A stretch of 37,209 bases of DNA from Gammaproteobacteria bacterium (GTDB lineage Bacteria; Pseudomonadota; Gammaproteobacteria; Pseudomonadales; Azotimanducaceae). Each line of letters begins with the position of its first letter. Within the stretch, counting starts at the first letter, position 1. A program made the position numbers and the translations under genes. This document shows, piece by piece, positions 1 through 17,765 of this stretch. Under the pieces are notes generated by a model that was not told the DNA's origin, searched no databases, and saw only the letters and a program-made list of their open reading frames with translations. The DNA is taken from assembly GCA_028821125.1 (NCBI GenBank), contig JAPPHD010000100.1, positions 1-37,209 on the forward strand. The letters are read 5' to 3'.

Positions 1-121
1 TGGCCGTGCGCCGAAAGGGAAGCGCCGCATGCGAACTCGCTGTTGAGACTGACGAGATTATGTCAAGCAACTTTATCCTTAAAATCAACGCATCAAGTTT
101 TGTTCCATGAAGGGCATCGTC

Positions 122-1423
122 ATGAAGATAGTCAGTCTTGCAGTCCCCGTCCTGATCGCCCTGGCGCTGGCCGGCACCGGCGGTTTTTCCGGCGTCGCGG
201 AAGCCCGCGCGCTGGCCGATACCACCCTCCAGCGCATGATGGGGCAGATACGCCGGGACAAGTTCGATCATGTCCTGCCGCGTGCCATGCGCGACAACGG
301 CGTGGACATGTGGATTCACGTGATCCGCGACCGCAACCCGGATGGGCTGGCCAGCGAGCTCGGCGGCCAGTCGGGCGTGTTCGTGTTCACCGACCGGGGC
401 CAGGACAGGATCGAGCGGGCCATTCTCGGCCACACCGATGAGGCGCTGTGGGAGGAAGATGCCTACGACATCCTGGCGGGGGAAGAAGCCTTCGAAGGCG
501 ATGCCGGCTGGGCACACGTGATCGGCGAGTTCGTGGCGGCGCGGGACCCGCAACGCATCGCCGTCAACTACTCGGGCATCAATGCCCTGGCCGACGGCAT
601 CTCGCACACCGACTACGAGACGCTGGCCGGTGCGCTGGGCGAGAAATACGCCGCCAGGATCGTCTCCGCCGAGCATGTGATCGGCGATTTCCTGGCGGGG
701 ATCGTGGTGGGCCAGATCGCGCTGGCGGGCTATTTCGGCCTGATCACCACCGAAACGATCGATGAGGAGTTCGCGAAGATCGAGGTGGGGGTGACGAGGC
801 TCGAGCAGATCGACGGCAACGTCTTCGTCCGCGACCCGGACGGCAACGAGAACAACAACAACGACTACGTGATCCAGCCCGGTGACATCGTCACGATTCT
901 CAACGGCACCGGCGAGGGGCTGTTTGTTGCGGATCTCGGCGGCAACGGCTATGCGCTCCGTGACGGCGAGACGGAGTTGCCGGAGCGGGTAAGCCGGATC
1001 TGGGACCATGCCATGGATGTCCGGGACATTCTCCGCGCCAACATCCGCATCGGCCCCACCGCGGGCGAAACCCTGGAAACGCTCATCGGCAAGCTGGAGG
1101 AGGCCGGCTACCTGTACATCGACAGCGATCAATACGATCCGGGCCTGGATCCGACGAAGACGCAGGTGCACCTCGACCTGCACGCCCAGGGCCGCCGGGA
1201 CATGGACGCGCCACGCATATCGCCCCTCGGCGGCGACTGGCAGCGCGCCATGCGCATCCCGCTGTTCCACAGCTTCACCCTGGAGTACATGGTGCACATG
1301 CCCGTACCCGAGTGGGGCCCGGGCAAACACCTCTACATCGCCTTTCACGACGGCGCGATCGTGACGCCCCGGGGCATCGAGTTCCCGTATCCGCCGGATC
1401 CCGGCATGCGAATCATCCGCTAG
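122..1423 (+). CDS. Exported M24-family (creatinase/Xaa-Pro aminopeptidase fold) paralogue 1, degenerate metal site
   Basis: About 433 residues with an N-terminal signal peptide (MKIVSLAVPVLIALALAG, cleavage near residues 25-30). I start at 122 because AAGGG lies 7 nt upstream; an ATG at 107 adds five residues but has no ribosome site. Family hallmarks are the N-terminal KFDHVLPRAMRDNGVDMWIH stretch, FVAARDPQRIAVNY, DGISHTDY, and a C-terminal pita-bread domain. The family His (about 354, in LHAQG) and Glu (about 388, in TLEYM) remain, but the first Asp ligand position reads TILNG and the last Glu position reads His (about 409, AFHDGA). A normal M24 hydrolase needs Asp-Asp-His-Glu-Glu, so peptidase activity is doubtful. 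It acts outside the cytoplasm. It is followed 26 nt later by a sodium symporter on the same strand. It most resembles the paralogue at 10477-11715. Confidence 0.85.
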   Translation: MKIVSLAVPVLIALALAGTGGFSGVAEARALADTTLQRMMGQIRRDKFDHVLPRAMRDNGVDMWIHVIRDRNPDGLASELGGQSGVFVFTDRGQDRIERAILGHTDEALWEEDAYDILAGEEAFEGDAGWAHVIGEFVAARDPQRIAVNYSGINALADGISHTDYETLAGALGEKYAARIVSAEHVIGDFLAGIVVGQIALAGYFGLITTETIDEEFAKIEVGVTRLEQIDGNVFVRDPDGNENNNNDYVIQPGDIVTILNGTGEGLFVADLGGNGYALRDGETELPERVSRIWDHAMDVRDILRANIRIGPTAGETLETLIGKLEEAGYLYIDSDQYDPGLDPTKTQVHLDLHAQGRRDMDAPRISPLGGDWQRAMRIPLFHSFTLEYMVHMPVPEWGPGKHLYIAFHDGAIVTPRGIEFPYPPDPGMRIIR

Positions 1424-1449
1424 CCGGTCGCTGGGCAGTCCAACGCACC

Positions 1450-3168
1450 ATGCATGACTGGACCCTCGACTACATAACGCTCGGCGCCTACCTGATCGCC
1501 GTGACGGTGATCGGCACCCTGGCCGCCCGCAAGGTCACCTCGACTTCCACCTTTTTCATGGGCGAGCGGAAGTTCGGCAAGTGGATGATGACCCTGTTCA
1601 CCTTCGGCACCGGAACGAGCACCGACCAGGCCGTCACCACCGTTGCAAAGACCTATACCGTGGGCGCCTCGGGGATCTGGTACCAATGGCTGTGGATATT
1701 CGCAACGCCGGTCTACTGGCTGCTGGCCCCCCTCTTCCGGCGCATGCGGGCCGTGACCACCGCCGACTATCTCCACGCGCGCTACAACCAGAGCGTTGCG
1801 GTGCTGTTCGCCATCGTGGGCGTGCTCAGCCTGTCCGTGCAGATCGGCGTCATGCTCAAGGCCTGCGGCGCCATGGTCACTTCCGTGACGGCCGGCGCCG
1901 TGAGCGAAGGCCTCGCCATCTACGGCATGACCGTCCTGTTCGTGATCTACGGCGTTGCCGGCGGATTGACCGCCGCGGTCATCACCGATTTCATCCAGGG
2001 GATACTCACCGTCGTGCTGTCGTTCCTGATCCTGCCGTTTGCCCTGCAGGCTGTCGGCGGGCTGGGCGAACTGCGCATACTCATCGACGATCCTTCGTTC
2101 TTCGACCTGATCTCGGATGCGTCCGGAACCGAGCGCCTGGGGCTTTTCTACGTCATTGTCATCTTCGTCAACGGGCTGATCGGCTGGGTGACGACACCCC
2201 ACTCCATGCAGATGTGCGGCGCCGGCCGCACCGACCAGGAGGCCCGGGTCGGGCTGGTCGGCGGCATGTTGCTGAAGCGCTTCTGCACCATTGCCTGGGT
2301 GCTGACGGCGCTCTGCGGCGTGGGCCTGTACATGAACACCACCATGCACGAAGACCTGGTGTGGGGCACCATGGCCCGTGACCTCTTGCCCACCATCGCG
2401 CCGGGGCTGGTGGGCCTCTTCATCGCCTCGGTTCTGGCCGCGGTGATGAGTTCCTGCGATGCCTTCATGGTTTCTTCCGCCGCGTTGTTCACGGAGAACA
2501 TCTACCGCCCGCTGATCCGTCCAAACCGCTCCGAGAAGCACTACGTGCTGGTGGGCCGGCTGACCGCCCTGGCCGTGGTGGCCGGCGGCATCGGCCTGGC
2601 GTTCGAGCTGCCGAGCGTCGTGGACGGCCTGGAACTGGTCTGGATCGTCCAGGCCATGATGGGCGTATCGATGTGGTTCAGCTTCTTCTGGCGCCGGGCA
2701 ACGGCCGCGGCCGCCTGGGCTTCGACCCTTGCCGGTTTCGCCACCTGGTTCCTGACCAGCACCATCGAAGTGGCCGGCGTGGTTATCTGGGATTTCAACG
2801 GCCGCTTCGCGCACCTGTTGCCCGCCAACATGACGGTCGAGGGCGCCCTGTCGCTGCCCTGGCAGATGCTGATCTATCTCTCCGTCGCCGCCGTCGTCAT
2901 GGTCGTCGTGAGCCTCCTGACCAGGCCGCCCGCCGAGGACAAACTGGACAGCATCTACGCCACCCTGCGCACGCCCGTGGCGTCGGACGAACCCGAAGTG
3001 CCGCCGCTCACGCTTCCCGAAGGCGTGCAGCCCGCGCCACGCGACCCGCTGATCGATCTGCCGGGCCTGGAGATCATGAAGCCTTCGCGTTCAGGCGTGG
3101 CGGGCTTTCTCGCCTGTTCGGCCCTGGTGGCGAGCCTGATCTGGTTTTTCGCCTGGATTCTCGGCTGA
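1450..3168 (+). CDS. Sodium:solute symporter (SSS family)
   Basis: About 572 residues with roughly 13 hydrophobic segments, the usual SSS size and topology. Diagnostic stretches are YGVAGGLTAAVITDFIQGIL in the middle and MSSCDAFMVSSAALF followed by ENIYRP, which matches the SSS transmembrane segment that helps bind sodium (usually MSSADS...SSLF..DIYRP). Start ATG 1450 is the first in-frame start after the upstream stop; no good Shine-Dalgarno is visible, so translation may be coupled to the gene ending at 1423. A soluble linker rich in Pro and Glu lies before a last hydrophobic segment. SSS proteins take up proline, pantothenate, sugars, acetate or amino acids; the substrate cannot be read here, but the setting among Xaa-Pro-type enzymes makes proline, hydroxyproline or small peptides attractive guesses. 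Confidence 0.9.
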   Translation: MHDWTLDYITLGAYLIAVTVIGTLAARKVTSTSTFFMGERKFGKWMMTLFTFGTGTSTDQAVTTVAKTYTVGASGIWYQWLWIFATPVYWLLAPLFRRMRAVTTADYLHARYNQSVAVLFAIVGVLSLSVQIGVMLKACGAMVTSVTAGAVSEGLAIYGMTVLFVIYGVAGGLTAAVITDFIQGILTVVLSFLILPFALQAVGGLGELRILIDDPSFFDLISDASGTERLGLFYVIVIFVNGLIGWVTTPHSMQMCGAGRTDQEARVGLVGGMLLKRFCTIAWVLTALCGVGLYMNTTMHEDLVWGTMARDLLPTIAPGLVGLFIASVLAAVMSSCDAFMVSSAALFTENIYRPLIRPNRSEKHYVLVGRLTALAVVAGGIGLAFELPSVVDGLELVWIVQAMMGVSMWFSFFWRRATAAAAWASTLAGFATWFLTSTIEVAGVVIWDFNGRFAHLLPANMTVEGALSLPWQMLIYLSVAAVVMVVVSLLTRPPAEDKLDSIYATLRTPVASDEPEVPPLTLPEGVQPAPRDPLIDLPGLEIMKPSRSGVAGFLACSALVASLIWFFAWILG

Positions 3169-3269
3169 ATCAGGGCTTGGGCGCACCGCAACGGTGCAGG
3201 GCGAAACACCGATGCACCAGCTTGCGCCACGTTGAGTTCAGCATGCCGCCGCACAGGCGCTTTCGCCGG

Positions 3270-3298
3270 TGGACTGGGCAGCGAATAAAATATACAAT
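3270..3298 (+). promoter_or_regulatory. Promoter candidate of the TonB receptor, with the motif shared with 36306-36320
   Basis: TGGACT (3270-3275), a 17-nt gap and TACAAT (3293-3298) form a plausible sigma-70-type promoter about 87 nt before the receptor start. The AT-rich stretch AATAAAATATACAAT (3284-3298) stands out in GC-rich DNA and occurs again, letter for letter, before the SDR-like gene at 36389, where TGGAC also lies at nearly the same distance. That suggests a common regulator or sigma factor. The remaining gap from 3169 to 3384 shows no other gene. Confidence 0.5.
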
Positions 3299-3384
3299 TG
3301 TGGCTTGGGGGATAGAAACATCTTTAAATTCAGCATGTTACCTATTCACCGAACACTTCTGCGGAGTTTCTTTGGAGGAAGACA

Positions 3385-5748
3385 ATGGCCTTAACGCGAT
3401 ACCTGGTTACAGCATCGGCAGCGATCCCTTTCGCGATCTTCGCCCTGTCGGGCGCTTCGCCGTCGGCATGGGCCGAGGACGACGAAGCCGGGGCGCCGGC
3501 GATCGAGGAAGTCATCGTCACCGCAACCAGGCGGGGGCAGGCGCTGAGCAAGGTACCGCTTGCCATTTCCGCCGTGGGGCAGGACGAGATCGAGCGGATG
3601 GGCTACACCAACATGGACGACTACTTCCGCTCCCTGCCATCGCTCAGCCTGATCGACGGCGGCGGCTATCAGAAGCACATGATCATCCGCGGCGTTGCCA
3701 TAGACCCCGGCCCGGAAGAGAAGGCGGCCACCGGCGTCTATGTCGACGAAACCCTGGTATCCGGCAACTTCGCCAATCTCGACCCGCGCATCTTCGACAT
3801 GGAACGCATCGAGGTTCTGAGGGGACCCCAGGGCACCCTGTACGGCGGCGGTTCGATAGCGGGTTCCGTGCGCTACATCACCAACAAGCCGAACGCCAGC
3901 GAGTTCGAAACCAACGTCGCCGCCGATGTGTATGCCACCAAGGGCGCCGACGCCGCCTGGTCCGCCGATGCGATGGTCAACATTCCGCTGATCGAAAACA
4001 CCCTGGCCATGCGCGTTTCCGGCTTCTACCACGACGCGTCCGGCATCTACCAGAACGAACTGTTCGATCTCGACGACCAGTCCAGCTACGAGCAGTCCGG
4101 CGGGCGGTTGGCCCTGCGCTGGACCCCCACCGACAACCTGACCGTCACTGGCATGTACATCAAGGACAAGACGGACCAGGACGGCCAGGCCCGCTCCCAT
4201 ACCCGCGACTGGAAGAACCGCAAGCAGACGAACATGGCGCCGGAGATCTTGAACGCGGACGCCGAAGTGCTCTCGCTGACTGCCACCCTCGATGTCGGCT
4301 GGGCCACCGTCACGTCCGTCACCTCGCAACTGGATATCTTCACGGACTACCAGCAGGACAGGAGCTTCCTGATCGGTGCATGGGGCATCTCGGACTGGGA
4401 TCCGCTGCGCCTCGTCGTCTACGGCGGCCGCGACGACGAGCAGTTCAGCCAGGAGATCCGCGTGGTCTCCGCCCCCGATGCCTTCGGCCGGTTCGACTGG
4501 ATCGCCGGCATGTATTATGCGGACCGGACCGACGGGAATGTATTCCAGGACTGTTTCGCGGTCGACGACGATGGGTTCGCCTCGATCGACGTCAACTACA
4601 TTGACGGCGGCGACCGGTTCGCCGCCAACGACCCGGACCAGGGAGCGCTCAATCCCTTCCCCGAGGGTCACGTCGACCCGTTCGGCGACCAGGGCGATAT
4701 CTCGGCCGGCACCTATCCGGAGTGCCTGTATCGGCAAGTCGGGAACACTTACAAGGAAGAACTGGCGTTCTACGGCGAGTTGAACTTCCGGGTGACCGAT
4801 CGGCTGACGGCAACGGTGGGCTATCGCAGAACCGACGACTCGCAGTCGCACGACGTCACGGCGCAGGTCGCCGAGGCGCCCCCGACCACCTTCAGCTTCA
4901 CCGACGTGGGGGACAAGTACAAGGAAAAGCACAACAACTTCATGGGCAACCTGTCGCTGGAAGTGAACGACAACCTCACCCTCTTTGCCCGGGCCGCCGA
5001 AGGGTTCCGTCTCGCGGCCGGCGCGCTGGCCCCGAACCTGGAGCCCGGCTGCGTCACGCTGGCCCAGGAACAGCTCGGCGGCGCCTCGCCCAGTGCCGTA
5101 TCCTCGGACAGCCTCTGGTCCTATGAAGGCGGGGCCAAGATGCTGTTGGCCGACGGCCGGCTGGCCATCAACGCCGGCTACTACCGCAACAGCTGGAAAG
5201 ACATCCTGGCCGGCATCATCGTCAGCGGCCCCAACTGCACCTGGTCGCAGTTTCTCCAGAACATCGCATCCGCCACCGGGAACGGTGTCGAGTTCGACAT
5301 GACCTACATCGCCACCGACGACCTGGAGCTGGGCGTCTCCGCGTCGTATCTGAAGTTCACGGTCGACGGCGACCAGCCCGTGCTCGGGGCCAGCGACGGC
5401 GACCGTCTGCCCAGCCATCCGGACTTCACCCTGAACGGGTACGCCCGGTACGGATTCCCGGTCGCCAACGGCTGGGACGGGTTCGTCCGCGGAGAGGTCT
5501 CCTACACCGGCAAGATCGTCGCCAATTTCGTGGCCGACCCGACGGTCGCAAGGCCCGACAGCGGAGACTATGCACTGGCGAACGTGCGCGGGGGAGTCAT
5601 GGGTGACCTGTGGGAAGTCGCCCTGTACGTCAACAACGTCTTCGACAGCCGCGCCCGGGCGTTCCAGTACGAGGACTGGACCGGACGTCTCGAGACCTTC
5701 GTGCTGCGGCCGCGAACCATCGGCCTGACCCTGCGGACGAAGATGTAG
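3385..5748 (+). CDS. TonB-dependent outer-membrane receptor
   Basis: 787 residues, standard length. A signal peptide ends near residue 30 (SAWA), followed by a TonB box (EEVIVTATRR, 41-50), a plug domain with FDMERIEVLRGPQGTLYGGG and a ring of beta strands to the C-terminus. The start is fixed by GGAGGA 6 nt upstream of ATG 3385. The protein would import a scarce large solute across the outer membrane using TonB energy. It lies between a sodium symporter and five exported M24 paralogues on the same strand, suggesting import of peptides or peptide-derived compounds; siderophore or other ligands are not excluded. The last residues are LTLRTKM: the usual terminal aromatic residue for barrel insertion is Met here. 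There is no SusD-like partner. Confidence 0.93.
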   Translation: MALTRYLVTASAAIPFAIFALSGASPSAWAEDDEAGAPAIEEVIVTATRRGQALSKVPLAISAVGQDEIERMGYTNMDDYFRSLPSLSLIDGGGYQKHMIIRGVAIDPGPEEKAATGVYVDETLVSGNFANLDPRIFDMERIEVLRGPQGTLYGGGSIAGSVRYITNKPNASEFETNVAADVYATKGADAAWSADAMVNIPLIENTLAMRVSGFYHDASGIYQNELFDLDDQSSYEQSGGRLALRWTPTDNLTVTGMYIKDKTDQDGQARSHTRDWKNRKQTNMAPEILNADAEVLSLTATLDVGWATVTSVTSQLDIFTDYQQDRSFLIGAWGISDWDPLRLVVYGGRDDEQFSQEIRVVSAPDAFGRFDWIAGMYYADRTDGNVFQDCFAVDDDGFASIDVNYIDGGDRFAANDPDQGALNPFPEGHVDPFGDQGDISAGTYPECLYRQVGNTYKEELAFYGELNFRVTDRLTATVGYRRTDDSQSHDVTAQVAEAPPTTFSFTDVGDKYKEKHNNFMGNLSLEVNDNLTLFARAAEGFRLAAGALAPNLEPGCVTLAQEQLGGASPSAVSSDSLWSYEGGAKMLLADGRLAINAGYYRNSWKDILAGIIVSGPNCTWSQFLQNIASATGNGVEFDMTYIATDDLELGVSASYLKFTVDGDQPVLGASDGDRLPSHPDFTLNGYARYGFPVANGWDGFVRGEVSYTGKIVANFVADPTVARPDSGDYALANVRGGVMGDLWEVALYVNNVFDSRARAFQYEDWTGRLETFVLRPRTIGLTLRTKM

Positions 5749-5757
5749 ATTGAGGAT

Positions 5758-5799
5758 GGGCGGGCCGGCGTTTTTCCGATTCTTGACGCCGCCCCGCCC
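5758..5799 (+). terminator. GC-rich hairpin after the TonB receptor gene
   Basis: Arms 5758-5771 (GGGCGGGCCGGCGT) and 5786-5799 (ACGCCGCCCCGCCC) pair over 14 bp with one mismatch around a 14-nt loop. It begins 10 nt after the receptor stop codon. There is no U-run after the stem, so it may be an attenuator or a 3'-end stabiliser rather than a full intrinsic terminator. It would lower expression of the downstream M24 array relative to the receptor. Confidence 0.5.
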
Positions 5800-5888
5800 C
5801 ACTCCCGCAATCCAGAAATATCCGGGGTGACAATCGCAATCGTCGCCCCGTGCTCATACCGGCTAATCCGCGAACAGGAGGCCTGACC

Positions 5889-7397
5889 ATGCTCGCACGA
5901 CCCGTTTCCCTGGGAATCCTTCCCCTGGCCCTCGCGCTCGGGGCCTGCGCCCCGCAATCACCGGACACCGATGCGTCCGGTGCACACACCGCCGAGGCAT
6001 TGCCCGAGGACCCCTGTGCGCTCACCCTCGAACCCATGCCGCCGGAAGAAATGGGCGCCCTTAAGAACCGGATACGGCACGAGAAGTTCGACCAGGTGCT
6101 GCCCGTGGTCATGCGGGCCAACGACATCGACATGTGGATCTACGTCTCCCGCGAGACCCTGCCGGACGACCTGGGTCACGAGGACTTCGGCGACAACAAT
6201 GCGGTGTTCATCTTCACGGACCGCGGCGGCGACCGTATCGAGAGGGCCGTGCTCGGCCGCCGCTTCCAGGGTGCGGAATTCGTCGCCGGCCAGGGTTCCG
6301 ATGTGGACCCGCTTGAAGTCAGCGGCGCTTACGACATCGTCGGGAAGCCGGTGGAGCGCGCCGAAGACCCGGGCATGTCGGGGACGGAGTACGACTATCG
6401 GTTCAAGGGGATCGGCGCCTTCGTGGCGGAGCGCGACCCGGAACGCATCGCGCTGAACTACATGGAGAAACTCGGGCCACGCATCGGCGGGCGTTCGCGC
6501 GACGGCATTTCCCACACCGACTACATCCTGCTGGCCCGGGAGCTCGGTGAAACCTACGCCTCGAGGCTGGTTTCCCACGACTACCTGATGCACGACTACA
6601 TTTCCAGAACGACACCGGCCGAGTGGGAATTTCTCACCCACATGCGCGAGTACATGCTGGCCGTTCAGGAACGGGACTGGTGCCGCATCGTGCCGGGCGA
6701 AACCCGGTTCTCCGAGCTCGACTCGGTGCTGTGGGTGGTCTCGAAGGACGGTGACCGAATCGGCTTCCGCGAGGAACTGTACCCGGGAGGCTATTCGAGC
6801 GAGACCGACTACGTGATCCAGAAAGGCGACACGATCTATCTCCGCCTGGGCTACTTCAAGACCGAAGGGCTCGTGAAGGAGATCTTCGGCAACTACTACG
6901 ACGGCCTGAACGAAATCGGCTACGTGCTCGATGACGGCGAGACCGAAGCGCCGCAATACGTGAAGGATGCCTGGGCCACGTCGCTCAAGGTGCACGACAT
7001 CGCCGAACGCCACCTCCGGGTCGGCAGCACGGGCCGGGAGATCTTTCGCGACATCATGGCCGAGGTGGAGGAGGCGGGCATCATGCCCCTCAATTCCCAG
7101 GTGTTCGATGAGAACCATGCCGACAGGATCCAGGTCAACCTGGATTTCCACGCCGCGGGCCAGGGCGACTCCACCCTGTTCCCGGCGCCCAGGCTCGGCA
7201 TCTACGGCCCCGACTGGAACCACGAGATGCCGTTCCCGCCGGGCCACCACTTCTATTTCGAATACTTCCTGTTCATGCCGATGCCGCAATGGGACGAAGG
7301 CAGCCTGCTCCTGCAGAGCCACGACGGCGCCATCCTCAACGAGGACGGCGTGCTGTTCCTGACGCCGCGGCCCATGGAAATCCGGCTCATCAAATGA
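5889..7397 (+). CDS. Lipoprotein of the M24-like family, paralogue 2, degenerate metal site
   Basis: About 502 residues. AGGAGG (5876-5881) lies 7 nt before ATG 5889. The N-terminus is a lipoprotein signal with lipobox LGAC (Cys20), so it should be membrane-anchored and face the periplasm or exterior. Family motifs: KFDQVLPVVMRANDIDMWIY, FVAERDPERIALNY, DGISHTDY, and the C-terminal pita-bread domain. The His of the metal site remains (about 421, DFHAAG) and so does a Glu (about 458, YFEYFL); the first Asp position reads YLRLG and the last Glu position reads His (about 478, QSHDGA). It is longer than its paralogues, with inserts near residues 100-130 and 320-350. Its stop overlaps a possible ATG of the next gene (ATGA at 7394-7397). 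It is probably not a conventional metallopeptidase; its role is unknown. Confidence 0.85.
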   Translation: MLARPVSLGILPLALALGACAPQSPDTDASGAHTAEALPEDPCALTLEPMPPEEMGALKNRIRHEKFDQVLPVVMRANDIDMWIYVSRETLPDDLGHEDFGDNNAVFIFTDRGGDRIERAVLGRRFQGAEFVAGQGSDVDPLEVSGAYDIVGKPVERAEDPGMSGTEYDYRFKGIGAFVAERDPERIALNYMEKLGPRIGGRSRDGISHTDYILLARELGETYASRLVSHDYLMHDYISRTTPAEWEFLTHMREYMLAVQERDWCRIVPGETRFSELDSVLWVVSKDGDRIGFREELYPGGYSSETDYVIQKGDTIYLRLGYFKTEGLVKEIFGNYYDGLNEIGYVLDDGETEAPQYVKDAWATSLKVHDIAERHLRVGSTGREIFRDIMAEVEEAGIMPLNSQVFDENHADRIQVNLDFHAAGQGDSTLFPAPRLGIYGPDWNHEMPFPPGHHFYFEYFLFMPMPQWDEGSLLLQSHDGAILNEDGVLFLTPRPMEIRLIK

Positions 7398-7414
7398 TTG
7401 CGAGGCCCTACGAC

Positions 7415-8797
7415 ATGACTGTTCGAATCACCGCACTGCTGATCGTCGCAGCCCTGGCATCGCCCCAAGCCGATGCCCGGGCGATGCCGCCGATGGAGAC
7501 GTTCCAGGCCCAGTGGGAAATGTCCTGCATCATCCGCCGGGACAAGCTCGACTACGTGCTGCCCACCGCCATGCGCCGGAACGATGTCGACATGTGGATC
7601 GTCTTCGACCACGGGCGCGGCACCCAGCCGCTGATGCTCGACTTCGGCATCGAGACCGCCTACGGCCAGGGCACCTACATCTTCTACGACAGCGGCGAGG
7701 GGCGCGTTGAACGGTATTCCCTGGGCGGCCCCGGCTCATCGGACTTCAGCACCCTGTGCGGCGCATACGACCCGGTACCGCCGAGTGCGCAGGGCCCCGG
7801 CGGCGAGGAACTGAGCACGCTGCAATCGATCGTGTTCGAGCGCGACCCCCAGCGCATTGCCGTGAACATCGTGCCGGACAACATCAAGGGCGAGGCGGTT
7901 CACATCGCCGACGGCCTGTCGTACAAGAACTACAACTACCTGGTGCGGGAACTCGGCGAGAAGTACGAAGAGCGGTTCGTTTCCTCGCTGGACCTGATCA
8001 CCGACTTCCACGGCGAACACGTGGCGGGGGAAATCGTCGAGATGCACAAGGTCGGCGACATCACCCGCCGGGGCCTGGAACGCGCCCTTTCCAACGAGGT
8101 GATCGAGCCCGGCAAGACCACCTACCGCGATGTGTACCTGTGGCTCGAGGAACTGCGCGAGACCCTGGGCCTGCGCCGCACCTGGGTACCCGGCATGGCG
8201 TTCGTGCAGCAGGACTTCAGGGGATACCAGAAGTTCTACGACAACCTCGCCGAGCGCGTCATTCAGCGCGGCGACCTGGTCTATATCGACTGGGGGCTGA
8301 AACGGAACAACTTCGCCACCGACATGAAGCGCACCGCCTACGTTCTCAAGGAGGGCGAGACCGGCGTGCCGGCAGACCTGCAGAGGGCCTGGAACGCGAT
8401 GCTGGATGTGCGGGAGATCATCCGCCGGCACGTCCGGGTGGGCAGGACCGGGCGCGAGCAGCTCGACGAGCTCAAGCAGTTGGTACGGGATGCCGGATAT
8501 GTCTATACGGAACAGGAGCGCGCCAGCGACGTGCCGGGCATCGAGGTCAACATCGGCATGCACGGCATGGGCAATATCGCCCACGACATGGTGGCCTCGC
8601 TGTTCGAGATACAGCCGGAGCTGACCGAGTACGAAGTCAGGCCGAACGCCTTCATGTCGCTGGAGTTCCGGGTTTTCTCTCCCTCGGACCAGCCGGGCTA
8701 CAAGATCCTGCTCGCCATAGAAGACAACGTCATGATCACGGAACGGGGCATCGAGTGGCTGTACCCGCCCCAGGACCGGGTACTGCTGGTGCGGTAG
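7415..8797 (+). CDS. Exported M24-family metallopeptidase with complete metal site, paralogue 3
   Basis: About 460 residues with a signal peptide (MTVRITALLIVAALASPQAD). GAGG lies 9 nt before ATG 7415; an ATG at 7394 overlapping the previous stop is an alternative that adds seven residues. All five M24 ligands are visible: Asp292 (YIDWG), Asp303 (FATDMKR), His383 (GMHGMG), Glu417 (SLEFR) and Glu436 (AIEDN). The 11-residue Asp-Asp spacing equals that of aminopeptidase P. The creatinase-like N-terminal domain has KLDYVLPTAMRRNDVDMWIV. M24 enzymes of this type cleave the bond before proline (Xaa-Pro aminopeptidase or dipeptidase) with two metal ions, though relatives include creatinase and lyases, so substrate is inferred. 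This is the only member of the local array likely to be catalytically competent in the classical way. Confidence 0.88.
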   Translation: MTVRITALLIVAALASPQADARAMPPMETFQAQWEMSCIIRRDKLDYVLPTAMRRNDVDMWIVFDHGRGTQPLMLDFGIETAYGQGTYIFYDSGEGRVERYSLGGPGSSDFSTLCGAYDPVPPSAQGPGGEELSTLQSIVFERDPQRIAVNIVPDNIKGEAVHIADGLSYKNYNYLVRELGEKYEERFVSSLDLITDFHGEHVAGEIVEMHKVGDITRRGLERALSNEVIEPGKTTYRDVYLWLEELRETLGLRRTWVPGMAFVQQDFRGYQKFYDNLAERVIQRGDLVYIDWGLKRNNFATDMKRTAYVLKEGETGVPADLQRAWNAMLDVREIIRRHVRVGRTGREQLDELKQLVRDAGYVYTEQERASDVPGIEVNIGMHGMGNIAHDMVASLFEIQPELTEYEVRPNAFMSLEFRVFSPSDQPGYKILLAIEDNVMITERGIEWLYPPQDRVLLVR

Positions 8798-8806
8798 CGG
8801 GCTCCA

Positions 8807-8982
8807 AGAGTGGGTATGCGGTACGGGTATCCGGCACGGGAGGTGAAAATTCTTTGGTGGGCAGCGCTGGGTGATCGACACCCGGCCCCGCAACTAGTTG
8901 CGGGGCGTCGCCACCTGCCGAAGCGGTGCTTCGGCTCGGGCTGCGCCCGACCGGTGGCGACCCCGTACCGCACACCCACTCT
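8807..8982. repeat. 176-bp hairpin-rich element with 21-bp terminal inverted repeats (MITE-like or structured RNA)
   Basis: The ends 8807-8827 and 8962-8982 are inverted repeats of 21 bp with one mismatch (left core GTGGGTATGCGGTACGGG). Inside are: GGGTG/CACCC around ATCGA (8869-8883); the perfect 20-bp palindrome CCCCGCAACTAGTTGCGGGG (8886-8905); and an outer stem GTCGCCACC/GGTGGCGAC that encloses two tight hairpins, GCCGAAGC-GGT-GCTTCGGC and TCGGGC-TGC-GCCCGA. CTCC occurs on both flanks (8802-8805 and 8983-8986), a possible but weak target duplication. It lies between two M24 paralogues, just after the stop at 8797, and occupies the place where the next gene's normal start would be. It could be a non-autonomous mobile element, a REP-like element, or a structured transcript region. 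No transposase is near. Confidence 0.7.
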
Positions 8983-8986
8983 CTCC

Positions 8987-10480
8987 TTGCAATCATCCGT
9001 TGTTCCCTACGCCCCGGCGTCCCGGCCGCCCGGGGCGGAAACTGACGGGATTGGTATCGGCGGGGCGATACCAGGGCATTTCGCCCGTCTGCTTGCGGTC
9101 GCTTCATTGGCAATCCTGCTGGCTGGGGAGCCATCGGCCCAGGAACGCTACACGGATCTCATGCACGGCATCGGCGACGCCAACTACGGCATCTTTGACC
9201 GCAACAACCCGTACGCCACCGAGGACATGCTGAACCATGTGCGGCGGGAGCGCTTCGAACTGCTGCTGCCCCGGGTGATGAAGGAGCACGGGGTGGACAT
9301 GTGGATCCACGTCATTCGTCCCTGGTCCTGGGGCGGGACGGACCCCATGCGCTACGAGTTCGGCACCAAGTCCGGTGTCCTGGTTTTCACCGATCTCGGC
9401 GAGCGGGTCGAACGGGTGGCATTCGAAGGCGAGGTGGCGGACCCCGGAGCCTACGATCTCGTGCGCGGCGAGAACCCGTTCGTCAGCCAGGAAAACTACG
9501 AGTTCATGGATCTCTTCGCCGAGCAGCCGGACTTCGAACTCGACACGGACATGGATTTGAGATTCCAAGGTCTCGGCGATTTCGTGGCCGAGCGCGACCC
9601 GTCGCGCATCGCCGTGAACTACGGCGAGACCCTGTCGCTGCCGGAAGGCTCGGAGACTTTCACCATGGCCCTGACGGACGGCATCTCCTACACCGACCAC
9701 GCCCAGCTCCGCAAGGCCCTGGGCGAAACGTACACCGGCCGCATGGTCTCCGCCGAATACATAATCCTCGATTACCTGTCCCGGCGGGTGATCGGCGAAG
9801 TCGCGCTCTATGGCACGTCCGGGGCGTTGCGCAGCGGCGGGCCGGATTTCGGGGCCATCGTGCCGGGGGTGACGACTCTCGACGAGATCGGCGCCGACTC
9901 CGCAATCGACCAGGACGGCAACCGGCGCCGGGGCGGCGACCATGTCATCCAGCGTGGCGATCTCGTCAGCGCCAATGCAGCCATGGCCTATGTGCTCAGG
10001 AAGGGCGAGGTCGGACTCCCCGCATACATGCGCCGCTACGACGAGGAGAACCGTGAGGTCCGCCGGATCCTGCGGGAGAACATAAGGACGGGCCTCACCG
10101 CGGGCGAGATGTGCGACGTTCTGGCGGCGAAGCTGGAGGAAGCGGGCTACATCTATACGGACTACCAGGAGTACAACAAGTACGTCGAGCACCCCGAGAA
10201 GACCCAGGTGCACCTGGACCTGCACGCCGAGGGCAAGGGCATACTGGCTCCGAGGATTTCCCCAATGGGGCCGAAGTGGCACTGGAACATGCAAGTCCCT
10301 CTTTTCAACACCTTTGCCGTCGAATACATGATCTACGTGCCGGTGCCGGAATGGTCCCGGGGCAACAACTTCACCGGACAGCAGTTGTACGGCGCCTTCC
10401 ACGACGGCGCGGTGGTCACGGGCCGCGGCATGGAGATCCCCTACCCCGACCGACGCATTGAAATTCAGGTGGTGCAATGA
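8987..10480 (+). CDS. Exported M24-like paralogue 4, metal-site loop deleted; start uncertain
   Basis: The reading frame is open from 8810, but the first part runs through the inverted-repeat element and is unlikely to be protein. No ATG lies between that element and the evident signal peptide (FARLLAVASLAILLAGEPSAQ, coded around 9078-9140). I place the start at TTG 8987 as the first start codon after the element; ATT at 9050 or GTG at 8843 are alternatives. The mature part has DNPYAT-type and RRERFELLLPRVMKEHGVDMWIH motifs, FVAERDPSRIAVNY, DGISYTDH and a C-terminal domain ending VPEWSRGNN...FHDGAVV. The strand pair carrying both Asp ligands is shortened (GDLVSANAAMAYVL), so both are absent; His (LHAEG, codon at 10223) remains and the last Glu is His. 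Closest local relative is 11715-13253. Its stop overlaps the next start by 4 nt. Confidence 0.75.
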   Translation: MQSSVVPYAPASRPPGAETDGIGIGGAIPGHFARLLAVASLAILLAGEPSAQERYTDLMHGIGDANYGIFDRNNPYATEDMLNHVRRERFELLLPRVMKEHGVDMWIHVIRPWSWGGTDPMRYEFGTKSGVLVFTDLGERVERVAFEGEVADPGAYDLVRGENPFVSQENYEFMDLFAEQPDFELDTDMDLRFQGLGDFVAERDPSRIAVNYGETLSLPEGSETFTMALTDGISYTDHAQLRKALGETYTGRMVSAEYIILDYLSRRVIGEVALYGTSGALRSGGPDFGAIVPGVTTLDEIGADSAIDQDGNRRRGGDHVIQRGDLVSANAAMAYVLRKGEVGLPAYMRRYDEENREVRRILRENIRTGLTAGEMCDVLAAKLEEAGYIYTDYQEYNKYVEHPEKTQVHLDLHAEGKGILAPRISPMGPKWHWNMQVPLFNTFAVEYMIYVPVPEWSRGNNFTGQQLYGAFHDGAVVTGRGMEIPYPDRRIEIQVVQ

Positions 10481-11715
10481 AACCGCGAGCCATCCCGAAC
10501 CTGTTCCTCGCCCTCCTGCTGGCGTGCCTTGCCGGCAACCTTGCCGCGCAGCACCGCGCACCGGACGCCGCTCCCGACCTGATGCAACTGATGCGCAGCG
10601 AAAAGCTGAACGTGATCCTGCCCCGGGCCATGCGGGCCAACGAAGTCGACATGTGGATTCACGCCATGGGGCCCGACGATCCGTTGGGATTCGAGCTGGG
10701 GCCCGGGCCGGGGGTCTGCATCTTCACGGACCCGGGCAGCGGGCGCATCGAGCGGGCGGTATTCGGCGGGCGCCGGGACGCGAAACTGTTCGACGTTGCC
10801 GGCGGCCCGGGTGACATCGCGGCCTACGTGGCTGAGCGCGACCCCGGGCGCATCGCCCTGAACCATTCCGACATTCCCGCATTCGACACGATTTCGGAAG
10901 CGGACCGCGAGAGCCTCGCCGAGACGCTGGGGCCGGAACTCGACGGCAGGACCGTATCCGCCGACCGCCTGATCGCCGACTTCCTGGCGGGCCGAACCAT
11001 GCCCGAGATCGCCCTGTACGGGCGGCTGATCATGGACAGTTCGAGGATCATGGAGGAACAGCTCGACAGCATCGTGCCGGGCGAAACGGCGCTACGGGAC
11101 CTTGCCGGAGAGGCGTTCATCGGCGCTCCGGACGCCACCGGCGAAAGCGACGGCGACCGCGTGATTCGGCGCGGGGACCTCGTCAGCGTATTCCATGGCT
11201 CGGCCATGATGGGCTTCTCCCAGCGAAATGCGCTCCACGCCTACGTGCTGCGCGAAAACGAGGCGGAAACGCCCCCGGAAGTACGCCGGCTCTGGGAACA
11301 GGCGCTCGAACTCCGCAACATCATGCGGCACAACGTCAAGGCGGGCCTGAGCGGCGCGGAGAACCTCGCAGCCCTTGCCGCCGCCATCGGGGAAGCGGGC
11401 TACATCCACATTGAAGAGAACCGGGTCGACACGGACGCCGACCCGGCCGCTACCCAGGTATTCATCGATTTCCATGCCCAGGGCCGCCGCATCTCGGCGC
11501 AGCATGCCCCCGGCATCTCCGCCTCCGGCTGGGGGCGCGACCTGGAGATTCCGCTCTATCACGCCTTCGCCTTCGAGTACGTGGTTCACATGCCGGTTCC
11601 GGCCTGGGGTCCGGGTGAACGTCTTTCCATCCGCCTGAGCGACGGCGCTGCCGTCACCGAACGGGGCGTGGAGTTTCCCGCGCCGCCGGCGCAGGGAATC
11701 AGGGCGATACGCTAG
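10477..11715 (+). CDS. Exported M24-like paralogue 5, degenerate metal site
   Basis: 412 residues, the shortest of the set. ATG 10477 overlaps the previous stop (ATGA) and has AGGTGG 5 nt upstream, which points to translational coupling. A signal peptide runs to about residue 25 (ACLAGNLAAQ). Motifs: KLNVILPRAMRANEVDMWIH, YVAERDPGRIALNH and the C-terminal VPAWGPGERLSIRLSDGAAV. The shared DGISHTDY element is changed to DTISEADR. The His (about 333, DFHAQG) and Glu (about 367, AFEYV) of the metal site remain; the first Asp position reads SVFHG, the second lies in SQRNALHAYVL without Asp, and the last Glu position reads Ser (RLSDGA). Conventional dinuclear-metal hydrolysis is unlikely. It resembles the paralogue at 122-1423 most closely. 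Confidence 0.83.
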   Translation: MKPRAIPNLFLALLLACLAGNLAAQHRAPDAAPDLMQLMRSEKLNVILPRAMRANEVDMWIHAMGPDDPLGFELGPGPGVCIFTDPGSGRIERAVFGGRRDAKLFDVAGGPGDIAAYVAERDPGRIALNHSDIPAFDTISEADRESLAETLGPELDGRTVSADRLIADFLAGRTMPEIALYGRLIMDSSRIMEEQLDSIVPGETALRDLAGEAFIGAPDATGESDGDRVIRRGDLVSVFHGSAMMGFSQRNALHAYVLRENEAETPPEVRRLWEQALELRNIMRHNVKAGLSGAENLAALAAAIGEAGYIHIEENRVDTDADPAATQVFIDFHAQGRRISAQHAPGISASGWGRDLEIPLYHAFAFEYVVHMPVPAWGPGERLSIRLSDGAAVTERGVEFPAPPAQGIRAIR

Positions 11716-13253
11716 TGTCCCGTGTTTTCGCTGCTATCGTCGACTGCAGTAGATTATTCGTGAACAGGGGCAGCCAGCTGCACGCAGCGAGCGCGAAAAC
11801 CGCCTCCTATAGCCGCTGCAGACTGCTGTGGCTGACGGGTCTCCTGTTCTGGTCGGGATGGGCCGCCGCCAGCGAGTACGAGGAAGCCATGCCCGGCATC
11901 AGCGACGCCTATTACGGCAGCTTCGACGCCGACAACCCGTACGCCACCACAGCCATGCTCGACCACATCCGCCGCGAGAAGTTCGACCTCGTCCTGCCCC
12001 GCATCATGCGCGCGCGCGGCGTCGACATGTGGATCCACGTGATCCGGCCCTGGACCTGGAGCGGCAACGAGGCCCGGCACCTGGAGGGCCTTGGCCTCAA
12101 CTACAGCAACATCGACAGCGTCGACCCCCTGCGTTACGAATTCGGCACCAACGCCGCCGTGCTGGTGTTCACCGACCGGGGCGGAGGCCGCATCGAGCGC
12201 GCGGTCTTTTCGGGCGAGGTCGAGGACGCCGGCGCCTACGACATCGTCCGGCCACAGTCGCCGTACATCAACCAGGAAAACTACGAGATCATGGATTTCG
12301 CGGCGCAGTATCCCGGCCGCGTGCCAGACACCGAGATCGGCTACCGGTTCATGGGGCTGCGCGAGTTCGTGGCCGAGCGGGACCCCGAACGGATCGCGCT
12401 GAACTATGCGGAGGAGCTGTCCCTGGCCGAGGGCTCCGAAACCTTCACCCTTTCCCTCACCGACGGCATCTCCTACGCGGACCACCTGCAGATCTCGAGG
12501 GAACTCGGGCCGGACCTGTCCGCCCGCCTGGTCTCCGCCGAGTACCTGATCCTCGATTACCTGAACACGAGCGTGCTGCCTGAAATCGTGCTCTTCGGCG
12601 GCACCGGCGAACCGCCCGAGATCCGCGACCTCGGCCCCGTCGTGCCCGGGCAGACGACGCTCGGCGACGTCAACGCCGGCTGGTTCAGCACCCGGGAAGC
12701 CGACCACGACGAAGAAGCCTTCGCCGACTTCCCGCTGCAGTTGGGCGACATGTTCCAGATCGGCCGCACCCCCTACTACCTGCTGCGGGAAGGCGAGACC
12801 GAACCGCCCGCCGAATACGTGCGCAGTTGGAACCACGTGGTCCGCGTGCGTGAGATCCTGGCCGAGAACATCGTGGCCGGCCGCACCGGCAGGGAGACCC
12901 TCGAACTGGTGATCGGCAAGCTCGAAGAAGCCGGCTACGCCTACATCGACCGGGACACCTTCGACCCGAGCCTGGACCCGGACAAGACCCAGGTCCACCT
13001 CGACCTCCACGCCGTGGGCAAGGGCATACTCGCACCGCGGGTCTCCCCCATGGGTTCCCGATGGCACGCCGACACGAACCTACCGCTACTGCAGACCCTC
13101 GGCGTCGAGTACATGGTCCATTCCCCGGTTCCCGAATACGGCGAAGGCAGGCACATCTACTACTGCAGCCTGCATGAGAAGGGCGTCGTCACCCGGGAGG
13201 GCCTGCAATTCGCCGCCCCTCCCACCCCAGGAATTCACAGCGTCCCGCCCTGA
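11715..13253 (+). CDS. Exported M24-like paralogue 6, metal-site loop deleted
   Basis: 512 residues from GTG 11715, whose first base is the last base of the previous stop codon. Another GTG at 11760 is possible, since the hydrophobic signal segment (LLWLTGLLFWSGWAAAS) begins only about 37 residues in. Motifs: SDAYYGSFDADNPYAT, KFDLVLPRIMRARGVDMWIH, FVAERDPERIALNY, DGISYADH and VPEYGEGRHIYYCSLHEKGVV. As in the paralogue ending at 10480, the segment with both Asp ligands is shortened (GDMFQIGRTPYYLL); His (LHAVG) and Glu (GVEYM) remain and the last Glu is His. The DNPYAT segment and an N-terminal insert after IRPW group these two as a recent duplicate pair that then diverged. It ends the + strand array; the next gene is convergent. 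Confidence 0.82.
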   Translation: MSRVFAAIVDCSRLFVNRGSQLHAASAKTASYSRCRLLWLTGLLFWSGWAAASEYEEAMPGISDAYYGSFDADNPYATTAMLDHIRREKFDLVLPRIMRARGVDMWIHVIRPWTWSGNEARHLEGLGLNYSNIDSVDPLRYEFGTNAAVLVFTDRGGGRIERAVFSGEVEDAGAYDIVRPQSPYINQENYEIMDFAAQYPGRVPDTEIGYRFMGLREFVAERDPERIALNYAEELSLAEGSETFTLSLTDGISYADHLQISRELGPDLSARLVSAEYLILDYLNTSVLPEIVLFGGTGEPPEIRDLGPVVPGQTTLGDVNAGWFSTREADHDEEAFADFPLQLGDMFQIGRTPYYLLREGETEPPAEYVRSWNHVVRVREILAENIVAGRTGRETLELVIGKLEEAGYAYIDRDTFDPSLDPDKTQVHLDLHAVGKGILAPRVSPMGSRWHADTNLPLLQTLGVEYMVHSPVPEYGEGRHIYYCSLHEKGVVTREGLQFAAPPTPGIHSVPP

Positions 13254-15697: not shown

Positions 15698-17593
15698 TCA
15701 GTCGCCGCCCGGAATCACCGGCAGGATCAGGTGTGACGGATGCTCGGCCGAGTGATGGACGCTGTTCTCGGCGATCACCCATTCCACTTCGTCATAGTTG
15801 TTGCCCCCGGTGTTCAGGTTGCGCTCGTAGAGCGGGAAGTCGCTGCTCGATACCTGCAGCCGTATCCGGTGCCCCGGGGCGAAATAGTTGCTGGTCGCAT
15901 CGAGGTCGATGCGCAACTCGTAGACCCCGTCCGGCTCCATCCACACTTTCCTGGTGAATCCCTCCCGGTAGCGGGCGCGCAGTACCGAACCCTGGACGTT
16001 GTAGGCGGTGCCGTCCGGGTAGACATCCACGAGCTTGACGGTGAAATCCGTATCCTTCGCCGACGAAGACACGTAAAGTACCGCGGTGATCGGCCCCGTC
16101 AGCTCAATGCCTGTCTCGAGGGGCGGCGTGGAATAGACCAGCACATCGCCGCGAACTTCCACCCGGCCCTGATCGACCGCGCCCGCCTTGGTGCCCCAGT
16201 CCGTGCCGCGCGGGCCGCCCGTGGACGGCACCGGATTTGCCGGGTCGTAGACGAAGGAGTCCACGGGTTCATCGCCGGGCGGTTCCGTCGACAGCCGGCC
16301 GTCGCCGTATCGGCTGTTGGCATTGCCGCCGCTGCGCAGGTAATAGTTCGTGTATTCCACTTCGGGTAGCGGCCAGACTTCCGCGGAACGCCACTCGTTG
16401 CGCCCCATGGTGTAGTAGCGGACCTTGGGCCCGTCCACTACCCCGTTGTCGATGCCCTTGAGCCAGTAGTCGAACCAGGCCAGGTAGATGCCGTAGTAGT
16501 CCAGGCGCGCATCGCCGATGTCGCGGTCGCCGACCAGGGTTCTTGCCGTGGCCTCCTCGTAACGGCAGTGGGTTGACGGCGCCAGGATCAGGAACTGGCC
16601 GTTCGCCGCGGCATCGGTGGTCGCGTTCTCGCGGAAATAGTTGAATTCGAAGATGCTCTCGTCAACGCTGATGTCGTACCAGGAACTCACGTGCAGCGCC
16701 GGCACCGAGATCGTCTCCGTGCCGTCGTAGTACCCCATGGTGTCGTGCCACCAGGGGTCGCCGAAATCACGCGTGACCAGTTCCAGGAAGTCGTTCGGCA
16801 GCGCCCCAGCCTTGTTCATGATATCCACCAGAGGAAGGGTCCAGACGAGCTTCTCCCAGTCGGGTTCGGCCAGCTTCGACGGGGTCGGATCGTAAAACTC
16901 CCTGATCCTGGCAAGTTCGTCCTCCGGAATGCCTGCCGGTGGTTTGAACGAGTACTTCACGCCGGTCTCGAAATACCAGGGCAGCGACGCCGCGAAGTCG
17001 AGCACCCCGCCCTTGAAACCGGACCAGTACCGGTAGCGGCCGTTGGCGGCGCCGATCATGGGGCCGTTGCGCGGGATCATGGTGGTGAGGTTCGGGTGCT
17101 TCAGCGGGGCCGTCGCCGCCTGCACTTCCGCGGGATAGGAGCAGCCGTGCATGCCCACCTTGCCGTTGGACCAGGGTTGCGCGGCGATCCACCCCACCGT
17201 GTCGTAGCCGTCCTCCGCCTCCTTGCCGGCGGGCGGCGAGAAGATGCCCTCGGATTCGAACTTGCCGCGGCTGTCCTGGGCGACGACGACGAAGCCGTGC
17301 GAGGCGAACATGTGCGCATCGCCGTCGGCTTCGTCCCTGAGCCGGTTCTTGTTGTAGGGGGTGCGGATCAGCACCGTGGGCAGTTTCCCGCCCTCCACGT
17401 CGGGAAAGTAGATGTCGGCCGCAAGGCGCACGCCGTCCCGCATCGGCACCATGCGGCTTTTTTCCAGCCGGAAGCCGTATTCCCCATCCGGCCGGGCGAT
17501 GGGCCCGGAATCCGATGCCTGGATGCCGCAACCGGCCATCAGCAAGCCGGCAAGGCCAAGGGGAAAGGCGCGTATCCATGAGAGCCTGAGCAT
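15698..17593 (-). CDS. CocE/NonD-family (X-Pro dipeptidyl-peptidase-type) lipoprotein hydrolase
   Basis: About 631 residues. CAGGAGA sits 7 nt before ATG 17593. The signal ends in lipobox MAGC (Cys22), so the enzyme should be lipid-anchored outside the cytoplasm. The alpha/beta-hydrolase part carries MVPMRDGVRLAADIYFP, RTPYNKNR, AQDSRGKFESEG and the nucleophile elbow GCSYPAE (Ser152). VSSWYDI and APSTHCRYEE supply the likely acid and base. The C-terminal half is the jelly-roll domain of X-Pro dipeptidyl-peptidases and cocaine esterase (GHRIRLQVSSSDFPLYERN). Members cleave either Xaa-Pro dipeptides or esters and acyl groups; sequence alone does not separate them. The elbow GxSYPxE differs from the common GxSYxG. 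Neighbouring proline-racemase-like genes favour a peptide role. Confidence 0.88.
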   Translation of the reverse strand: MLRLSWIRAFPLGLAGLLMAGCGIQASDSGPIARPDGEYGFRLEKSRMVPMRDGVRLAADIYFPDVEGGKLPTVLIRTPYNKNRLRDEADGDAHMFASHGFVVVAQDSRGKFESEGIFSPPAGKEAEDGYDTVGWIAAQPWSNGKVGMHGCSYPAEVQAATAPLKHPNLTTMIPRNGPMIGAANGRYRYWSGFKGGVLDFAASLPWYFETGVKYSFKPPAGIPEDELARIREFYDPTPSKLAEPDWEKLVWTLPLVDIMNKAGALPNDFLELVTRDFGDPWWHDTMGYYDGTETISVPALHVSSWYDISVDESIFEFNYFRENATTDAAANGQFLILAPSTHCRYEEATARTLVGDRDIGDARLDYYGIYLAWFDYWLKGIDNGVVDGPKVRYYTMGRNEWRSAEVWPLPEVEYTNYYLRSGGNANSRYGDGRLSTEPPGDEPVDSFVYDPANPVPSTGGPRGTDWGTKAGAVDQGRVEVRGDVLVYSTPPLETGIELTGPITAVLYVSSSAKDTDFTVKLVDVYPDGTAYNVQGSVLRARYREGFTRKVWMEPDGVYELRIDLDATSNYFAPGHRIRLQVSSSDFPLYERNLNTGGNNYDEVEWVIAENSVHHSAEHPSHLILPVIPGGD

Positions 17594-17765
17594 GGGTTTC
17601 TCCTGAATCCGTTCATTGAGGGCGTCTTTTCGGCCAGTTGTACGATGGAAATCCGGCAACCCGGGCCCTGATCAGGTTCGACGACGCCCAAATCGCCGAA
17701 CCCAGCCCACCGGGGGCGGCCTGGAGTTGTTGCGGTTTTTTCATCGCCAGCCCGGGCCATCTCGT

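Follow-up and report, generated by a model that had tools for sequence, protein, structure and literature searches.

Contig JAPPHD010000100.1 of assembly GCA_028821125.1, from a Gammaproteobacteria bacterium of the Azotimanducaceae, encodes six M24-like proteins in one array. Here we report that five of them (P0001, P0002, P0004, P0005 and P0006) have lost the dinuclear site of M24 peptidases and share in its place one derived constellation of residues from common descent; the sixth, P0003, is a canonical homologue. The orthologue groups tested among the rebuilt copies are under purifying selection, and groups A to D recur in linkage with canonical copies in other genomes. The window analysed is the whole contig (C65), 37,209 bases long and beginning at base 1. 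With a probability of roughly 0.55, we read the five copies as maintained, neofunctionalised, exported M24-fold proteins that work with a canonical Xaa-Pro-type peptidase in the use of prolyl peptides, a reading in which export, metal binding and the prolyl substrate are inferred.

The M24 array

The array consists of six intact M24-like open reading frames (ORFs), all on the plus strand between 122 and 13253, and its span also holds plus-strand genes for a sodium:solute symporter family (SSF) protein and a TonB-dependent receptor (Table 1). A first-pass annotation of this DNA had described six signal-peptide-bearing paralogues on one strand in 13 kb with a symporter and a TonB receptor; ORF calls and translations confirmed all the frames, and the hydrophobic, signal-peptide-like stretch at the start of all six proteins was seen by eye. 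The motif DMWI is constant across the six and the ERDP and DGIS motifs are kept in most, as had also been noticed. Homology of the six exceeds chance: with P0001 as query the other five are found at E values of 4.6e-89 to 2.2e-22, and P0003 as query gives, for the best piece of each, 3.8e-44 to 1.7e-12. P0003 scores 62.4 bits with the Pfam M24 model (PF00557; gathering cutoff 23). The five rebuilt copies stay below that cutoff, P0002 with 14.0 and P0005 with 12.2 bits, and P0001, P0004 and P0006 give no match at E<=1. No NCBIfam model reached its cutoff with any of the six.

P0002 and P0003 are 17 bases apart, and P0003 and the open frame of P0004 12 bases. As to the coupled starts proposed earlier, P0004 and P0005 overlap by 4 bases, and P0005 and the open frame of P0006 by 1 base; the starts of P0004 and P0006 are themselves uncertain, as the start codons preceding the hydrophobic stretch (nearest 8987 in P0004; 11715 and 11760 in P0006) give a long lead.

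A rebuilt site

P0003, the sole array protein to pass PF00557, retains the complete D-D-H-E-E set (D292, D303, H383, E417, E436) together with a second His (H390), in agreement with the earlier statement that only 7415-8797 keeps these ligands. E436, in the motif AIEDN, aligns with the RIED Glu of E. coli YpdF (5cnx), weakly (phmmer 15.7 bits, domain E 0.05), and its column falls on the like Glu of 2zsg in the family profile (domain 2, -0.6 bits); we take a Glu of this type to be the fifth M24 ligand. E447 was considered for this role and rejected, as the YpdF alignment points to E436. Across the canonical rows of the alignment the first four ligands are present in 90/90 and E436 in 89/90, the exception being one truncated row, and H390 is His in 83/90.

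The rebuilt rows (n = 37) have no Asp in the D292 column (0/37), Asp in the D303 column in 11/37, His at H383 in 37/37, Glu at E417 in 35/37, no His at H390 (0/37), and in the E436 column His in 36/37 and Ser in one, P0005. In the window the fifth-ligand column thus holds His in four of the five rebuilt copies and Ser in P0005, so the sites were rebuilt and not simply lost. The first-pass annotation had called the five sites ruined: the dinuclear site has indeed gone from all five, but a shared rebuilt set stands in its place. It had also raised the possibility that all ligands are present at shifted positions; the first metal Asp is missing in 50/50 clade rows, and the ligands are not all present elsewhere.

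In P0001 the first Asp has become L260, D271 is kept, D352-x-H354 follows, the second His is M361, E388 is followed by Y389, and the fifth ligand is replaced by H409; in P0004 the segment carrying both metal Asp residues is deleted or replaced. D352, R365, W373, Y389 and H409 (P0001 numbering) are among the positions that hardly vary in the rebuilt rows (at least 36/37 alike) and carry a residue other than the one most frequent in canonical rows. These columns stand out because groups A and E are on average only 32% identical in the C-domain. The His-Glu-His trio is present in 34/37 rebuilt rows, and in 47/50 after later finds, with three gammaproteobacterial group C proteins (P0005 and those of loci L037 and L038) as the exceptions. 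The nine group A proteins of the 37-row set also retain D303, giving four possible ligands. In P0003 columns, Y418 is kept in 49/50 clade rows and D381 in 50/50, D381 and the fifth-position His having formed part of the residue label by which rebuilt rows were defined; against the distinctiveness of these two, Asp at D381 also occurs in 7/90 and Tyr at Y418 in 22/90 canonical rows. All canonical rows have a Trp in the column of P0003 position 243, and all five rebuilt copies lack it.

A single clade

Rows were labelled by residues and then placed in whole-domain trees. Fifty-two rows lacked D-D-H-E-E, and 50 of these carried the rebuilt signature (one truncated row was excluded). In both trees, one with 37 and one with 50 signature rows, built by a "quick" method and assessed only by the Shimodaira-Hasegawa-like approximate likelihood ratio test (SH-aLRT), the signature rows form one side of a single branch with SH-aLRT 100. 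Independent loss of ligands in each copy was rejected, as the trees give a single clade. M24 enzymes in general carry D-D-H-E-E, and the rebuilt state is therefore taken as derived. PF00557 matches 1/20 clade members at E<=0.01.

The clade is hosted by Pseudomonadota, Acidobacteriota and one metagenome-assembled genome (MAG) of Aminicenantes, which GTDB places inside Acidobacteriota. Groups A, B, C and D each contain members from gammaproteobacterial MAGs and from the Acidobacteriota set, and C also contains the Aminicenantes MAG (L132 in L154). A separate degenerate pair lies outside the clade (the N/N group; L053, 2425-3966 on the minus strand, and L159, 6381-7922 on the plus strand), with Asn at the first Asp and Ser at the fifth ligand; a TonB receptor gene adjoins it in L053 and an amidohydrolase gene is nearby in both loci.

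Selection and domain conservation

The ratio of nonsynonymous to synonymous substitution (dN/dS) was estimated for five orthologue groups, A to E; P0002 has no close orthologue and stands outside the test. Pairwise Nei-Gojobori values were 0.06-0.24 in groups A to D and 0.09-0.22 in two canonical groups. After splitting by domain, the means of six rebuilt sets (A twice, B, C, D and E) were 0.09-0.18 for the N-terminal (N) domain and 0.09-0.25 for the C-terminal (C) domain, the latter comprising 0.092 (A, Acidobacteriota), 0.132 (A, gammaproteobacteria), 0.175 (B), 0.251 (C), 0.145 (D) and 0.165 (E). Three canonical sets gave 0.13-0.41 for the N-domain, where 0.41 rests on a dS of 0.07, and 0.07-0.21 for the C-domain. 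Both domains of the five tested rebuilt groups are under purifying selection. The neutrality check proposed in the first-pass annotation has thus been run on orthologues, and neutral evolution was not seen; intact frames, dN/dS of 0.06-0.25 and the conserved site uphold its view that these copies are maintained and not decaying.

Mean identity between rebuilt and canonical proteins was 47.5% in the N-domain and 28.1% in the C-domain, with N above C in 3330/3330 pairs, which are non-independent. In a control of 66 canonical rows outside the clade of group A's canonical partners (the partner clade), the corresponding values were 59.6% and 58.5%, with N above C in 2148/4290 pairs.

Linkage and distribution

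On the A-D side of the clade (fork support 93), 28/31 rows are arranged in tandem with a canonical copy, P0001 being counted across a contig gap; on the other side (19 rows) P0002 alone does so. Group A directly follows a canonical copy in nine single-contig cases (L037, L053, L040, L041, L044, L045, L047, L051 and L179) and, judged across the gap, in the window too. Canonical copies of the partner clade also occur without A, for example in L042 and L048. The window, L037 and L038 share the order canonical-B-C-D, and in the Acidobacteriota set L174 has canonical-D-B-C and L176 D-B-C-canonical, the canonical copy there belonging to another subclade. Sets of one canonical copy and three distinct rebuilt types recur in gammaproteobacteria and Acidobacteriota. 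In L044 (Acidobacteriota) the group A unit sits amid unrelated genes such as MgsA.

None of eight same-genus genomes matched P0001 at 1e-5, and 3/57 among all relatives did so, weakly and in part. At 1e-50 a survey of the class found 1/369 genomes, the bacterium's own (0/368 others); the P0001 type is nevertheless present in the hosts of L037 and L038, which are missing from the matches listed. In the Acidobacteriota set 44/396 genomes had a family match at 1e-50, canonical proteins included, and 17 of these 44 exceeded 440 bits, the range of classified full-length rebuilt members, although these 17 are only partly classified by residue. In either survey no more than four candidates were scored for any one genome. 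Vertical inheritance within Gammaproteobacteria is unsupported, given the scarcity of P0001 matches among relatives and in the class. The gammaproteobacterial and Acidobacteriota copies of group A have 76-80% protein identity (dS 0.89-1.09), and horizontal transfer of this group between the phyla is likely.

The window begins within a REP/REPIN-like repeat. This 31-base element has 218 copies in the genome at <=3 mismatches (reversed control, 0); many copies among the matches listed form inverted pairs with starts 78 bases apart, and copies occur at the extreme ends of several contigs. Another contig of this genome, C30, has a copy of this repeat on the opposite strand at its end, 143 bases past the stop of a canonical M24 gene whose product is 57% identical to P0003. 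No overlap was found between the ends of C30 and C65, and because so many copies exist the repeat alone proves nothing about this junction. In L037, however, one contig carries the orthologue of the C30 gene, then group A, SSF, TonB, the P0003 orthologue, B, C and D. From this gene order the array very probably reads canonical 1 - A - SSF - TonB - P0002 - canonical 2 (P0003) - B - C - D, with an extra canonical copy ("act1") just upstream of P0001. The count of six given earlier thus holds for the window; the true array very probably has seven M24-like members, with counterparts in other genomes. P0002 is absent from the corresponding place in L037 and L038.

A further rebuilt copy of this genome (group E, L116) lies on contig C149 beside a divergent TonB receptor gene; two TonB receptor genes and, by eye, an amidohydrolase-like and a cupin-like gene are found near it. 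On C30, upstream of the canonical copy (L115), genes resembling a short-chain dehydrogenase/reductase, a Rieske protein, a flavoprotein and an old yellow enzyme lie in a row (by eye), possibly another catabolic cluster.

Fold and comparison with known systems

An AlphaFold2 (AF2) model of P0001 (mean predicted local distance difference test score, pLDDT, 88.4; predicted template modelling score, pTM, 0.85) and a Foldseek search with it indicate the pita-bread fold. The best PDB matches were Xaa-Pro peptidases (2zsg, E 2.6e-15, template modelling score 0.58 by query length), and creatinase, DddP, EutD and Spt16 were among the 50 matches listed. The AF2 model of P0004 had a pLDDT of 81.6. P0002, P0005 and P0006 presumably have the same fold, by homology.

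M24 Xaa-Pro peptidases (aminopeptidase P, prolidase; 2zsg, 5cnx, 3q6d) resemble the P0001 model as its best matches, and P0003 shares with them D-D-H-E-E and the second His. The rebuilt copies differ from them in lacking the first Asp, in having His at the fifth ligand (Ser in P0005) and in lacking the Trp at P0003 position 243. By their Foldseek names, creatinase, EutD/DoeA and DddP are M24-fold enzymes of other chemistry and offer a precedent for new enzymes. The N-terminal domain of Spt16 has the M24 fold (a Foldseek match) and lacks peptidase activity; unlike the proteins here it is eukaryotic and has another role. To our knowledge, the M24-fold proteins that lack a peptidase site, namely EBP1, Spt16 and PID-5, are each an isolated case from a eukaryote. 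The mitochondrial processing peptidase (MPP) differs from M24 in fold and family.

The aminopeptidase P-related domain of C. elegans PID-5 is an M24 homologue that keeps one His and one Glu, and for which binding of one Zn and pairing with active APP-1 have been proposed (PMC10377022). It is alike in its lost ligands and proposed active partner, the counterpart here being gene linkage; it is unlike in being a nematode domain within a larger eTudor protein, with Gly and not His at the second Glu and no array. A review of pseudo-metallopeptidases tabulates EBP1 (PA2G4) for M24, a eukaryotic protein that likewise has the M24 fold without the peptidase site, with another role and with D, N, H, D and K at the ligand positions (PMC11266112). 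The same review describes the alpha and beta subunits of MPP (M16), where an inactive paralogue is needed by the active one (PMC11266112), and may by analogy serve as a working model for the pairing of inactive and active paralogues. The earlier claim that no such system had been described needs narrowing: no similar bacterial array was found in the open-access literature among the matches listed, most subscription literature lying outside that scope, and pseudo-M24 proteins and the PID-5/APP-1 pair are published. The present case is bacterial: a clade whose members share one rebuilt site, in several types maintained together, with neighbouring canonical paralogues that can serve as internal controls. 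It gives a clean way to ask whether "dead" peptidase paralogues act as partners, as receptors or as new enzymes.

Interpretation

In the reading we prefer, the dinuclear peptidase site would have been rebuilt in one ancestor, with loss of the first Asp and replacement of the fifth-ligand Glu by His, and the new conserved set (D352-x-H354, R365, W373, E388-Y389 and H409 in P0001) would have taken the place of the old site. Such a set would be compatible with a single metal ion coordinated by His-Glu-His, or with a pocket dedicated to a ligand. The N-domain, which takes part in oligomer contacts in known M24 enzymes, would have stayed much nearer to the canonical enzymes. The rebuilt proteins would be exported and work in the periplasm alongside one or two canonical M24 enzymes, most likely either as their partner subunits or as companion enzymes. 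Prolyl, possibly hydroxyprolyl, peptides may enter through the TonB receptor; canonical M24 enzymes, the S15 hydrolase and the amidohydrolase of Table 1 would cut the prolyl bonds; the SSF symporter would import the products, and the racemase family enzymes and the dehydrogenase would pass them to metabolism. If this holds, it suggests a route to the use of collagen-type peptides by such bacteria; a sponge MAG survey reported no collagenase genes (PMC8163846). The isolate labels COS1 and RHO1 may point to sponges as the source of the MAGs treated here.

Several observations weigh against this reading. Partner-clade and other canonical proteins are also more alike in the N-domain (48.9%) than in the C-domain (42.1%; N above C in 1489/1584 pairs), so part of the domain contrast is general; in the N-domain the rebuilt proteins stand about as near to canonical enzymes as one canonical subclade does to another, and in the C-domain they are far more distant. 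No canonical M24 gene stands next to three A-D-side rows (L175, L177 and L178), the 17 rows of group E or L133, and the partnership is thus not universal. The His-Glu-His trio is lost in gammaproteobacterial group C (Ser for His in P0005; Ser or Ala for Glu in L037 and L038), and metal is therefore unlikely to be essential there. Finally, the NCBIfam names behind the proline reading fall below their cutoffs, save for the broad CocE/NonD model of the S15 hydrolase, and for this reason a role of the locus with proline or hydroxyproline peptides is likely, not established.

A bolder version we hold only tentatively: the clade would be a new class of exported mononuclear M24-fold metalloenzymes, with His-Glu-His gained by a single Glu-to-His swap. 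Types A to D and a canonical peptidase would then handle prolyl peptides together, either as one multi-subunit assembly or as a relay, and would have crossed between phyla as a unit. The ideas of partners, receptors and new enzymes are mutually compatible. That the copies are purely pseudoenzyme partners, non-catalytic subunits that hetero-oligomerise with canonical M24 proteins and set their specificity, stability or activity around a structural pocket, seems to us rather unlikely. The tandem runs in 28/31 A-D-side rows and the nearness of the N-domain to canonical copies would fit it, as would the precedents of PID-5/APP-1 (PMC10377022) and alpha- and beta-MPP (PMC11266112); yet the C-domain, about as constrained as the N-domain and with a conserved polar site, suggests something beyond scaffolding, and group E has no neighbouring canonical copy.

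Less probable still is that the copies are binding proteins, periplasmic or surface receptors from which the TonB receptor or the symporter would take over peptides or imino acids. In the window, L037, L159 and L177 a rebuilt copy has an SSF gene as its direct neighbour, and in L160 the distance between the two is 1.1 kb; the genome's own C149 copy is divergent from a TonB receptor gene, and P0002 has a lipobox-like motif (by eye); against this, the Acidobacteriota group A loci searched hold nothing like the window's SSF or TonB receptor, yet a canonical neighbour is present. Decay of peptidase duplicates, to which the missing ligands and the further erosion of group C might point, is rejected on the basis of dN/dS of 0.06-0.25 and the conserved rebuilt site, with intact frames and A-D orthologues in both Pseudomonadota and Acidobacteriota also standing against it.

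Genomic neighbourhood

Table 1. Features of the window, with coordinates in bases, strand and evidence.
Feature	Coordinates	Strand	Evidence
Contig end within REP/REPIN-like repeat (8-38); assembly breaks there	1..121	.	Repeat count, L037 gene order
P0001, group A rebuilt M24-fold protein	122..1423	+	ORF, alignment, AF2 model, Foldseek
SSF sodium:solute symporter	1444..3168	+	PF00474, 5.6e-33
TonB-dependent receptor	3385..5748	+	PF00593, PF07715
P0002, rebuilt M24-fold protein, LGAC lipobox-like motif (by eye)	5889..7397	+	ORF, alignment
P0003, canonical M24 peptidase homologue	7415..8797	+	Pfam M24, D292 D303 H383 H390 E417 E436
P0004, group B rebuilt M24-fold protein	9050..10480	+	Translated from 9050 inside open frame from 8810; start uncertain
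P0005, group C rebuilt M24-fold protein, most eroded site	10477..11715	+	ORF, alignment
P0006, group D rebuilt M24-fold protein	11715..13253	+	Open frame from GTG 11715; translated from 11820; start uncertain
S15/CocE-NonD family hydrolase, lipobox-like N-terminus (by eye)	15698..17659	-	Broad CocE/NonD model above cutoff
Proline racemase family enzyme 1, Cys in DRSPCGTGT motif	17766..18818	-	Pfam
GntR/FCD regulator	19014..19682	-	Domain match
Proline racemase family enzyme 2	19796..20830	-	Pfam
Aldehyde dehydrogenase; best NCBIfam equivalog alpha-ketoglutaric semialdehyde dehydrogenase, below cutoff	20993..22429	+	NCBIfam
HipA-like gene	22517-23734	-	PF07804, PF13657
Amidohydrolase; best NCBIfam equivalog Xaa-Pro dipeptidase, below cutoff	34825..36126	-	NCBIfam

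The nearest NCBIfam equivalog of the SSF protein is PutP, below its cutoff; the protein is 88% identical to its counterpart in L037 and 63-64% to those in L159, L160 and L177. The TonB receptor is 66% identical in L037 and L038. The S15 hydrolase is a recurrent neighbour of the array, at 83% identity in L037 and L038 and about 70% in L174, L175 and L177. Proline racemase 1 (78%) and the GntR regulator are likewise common to L037 and L038. Past the array, genes for an alcohol dehydrogenase-like protein and a major facilitator superfamily transporter also lie on the minus strand. In L158 (Acidobacteriota), two RTX-repeat proteins and a sulfatase are encoded near a group E copy (4294-6921 on the plus and 10064-11656 on the minus strand).

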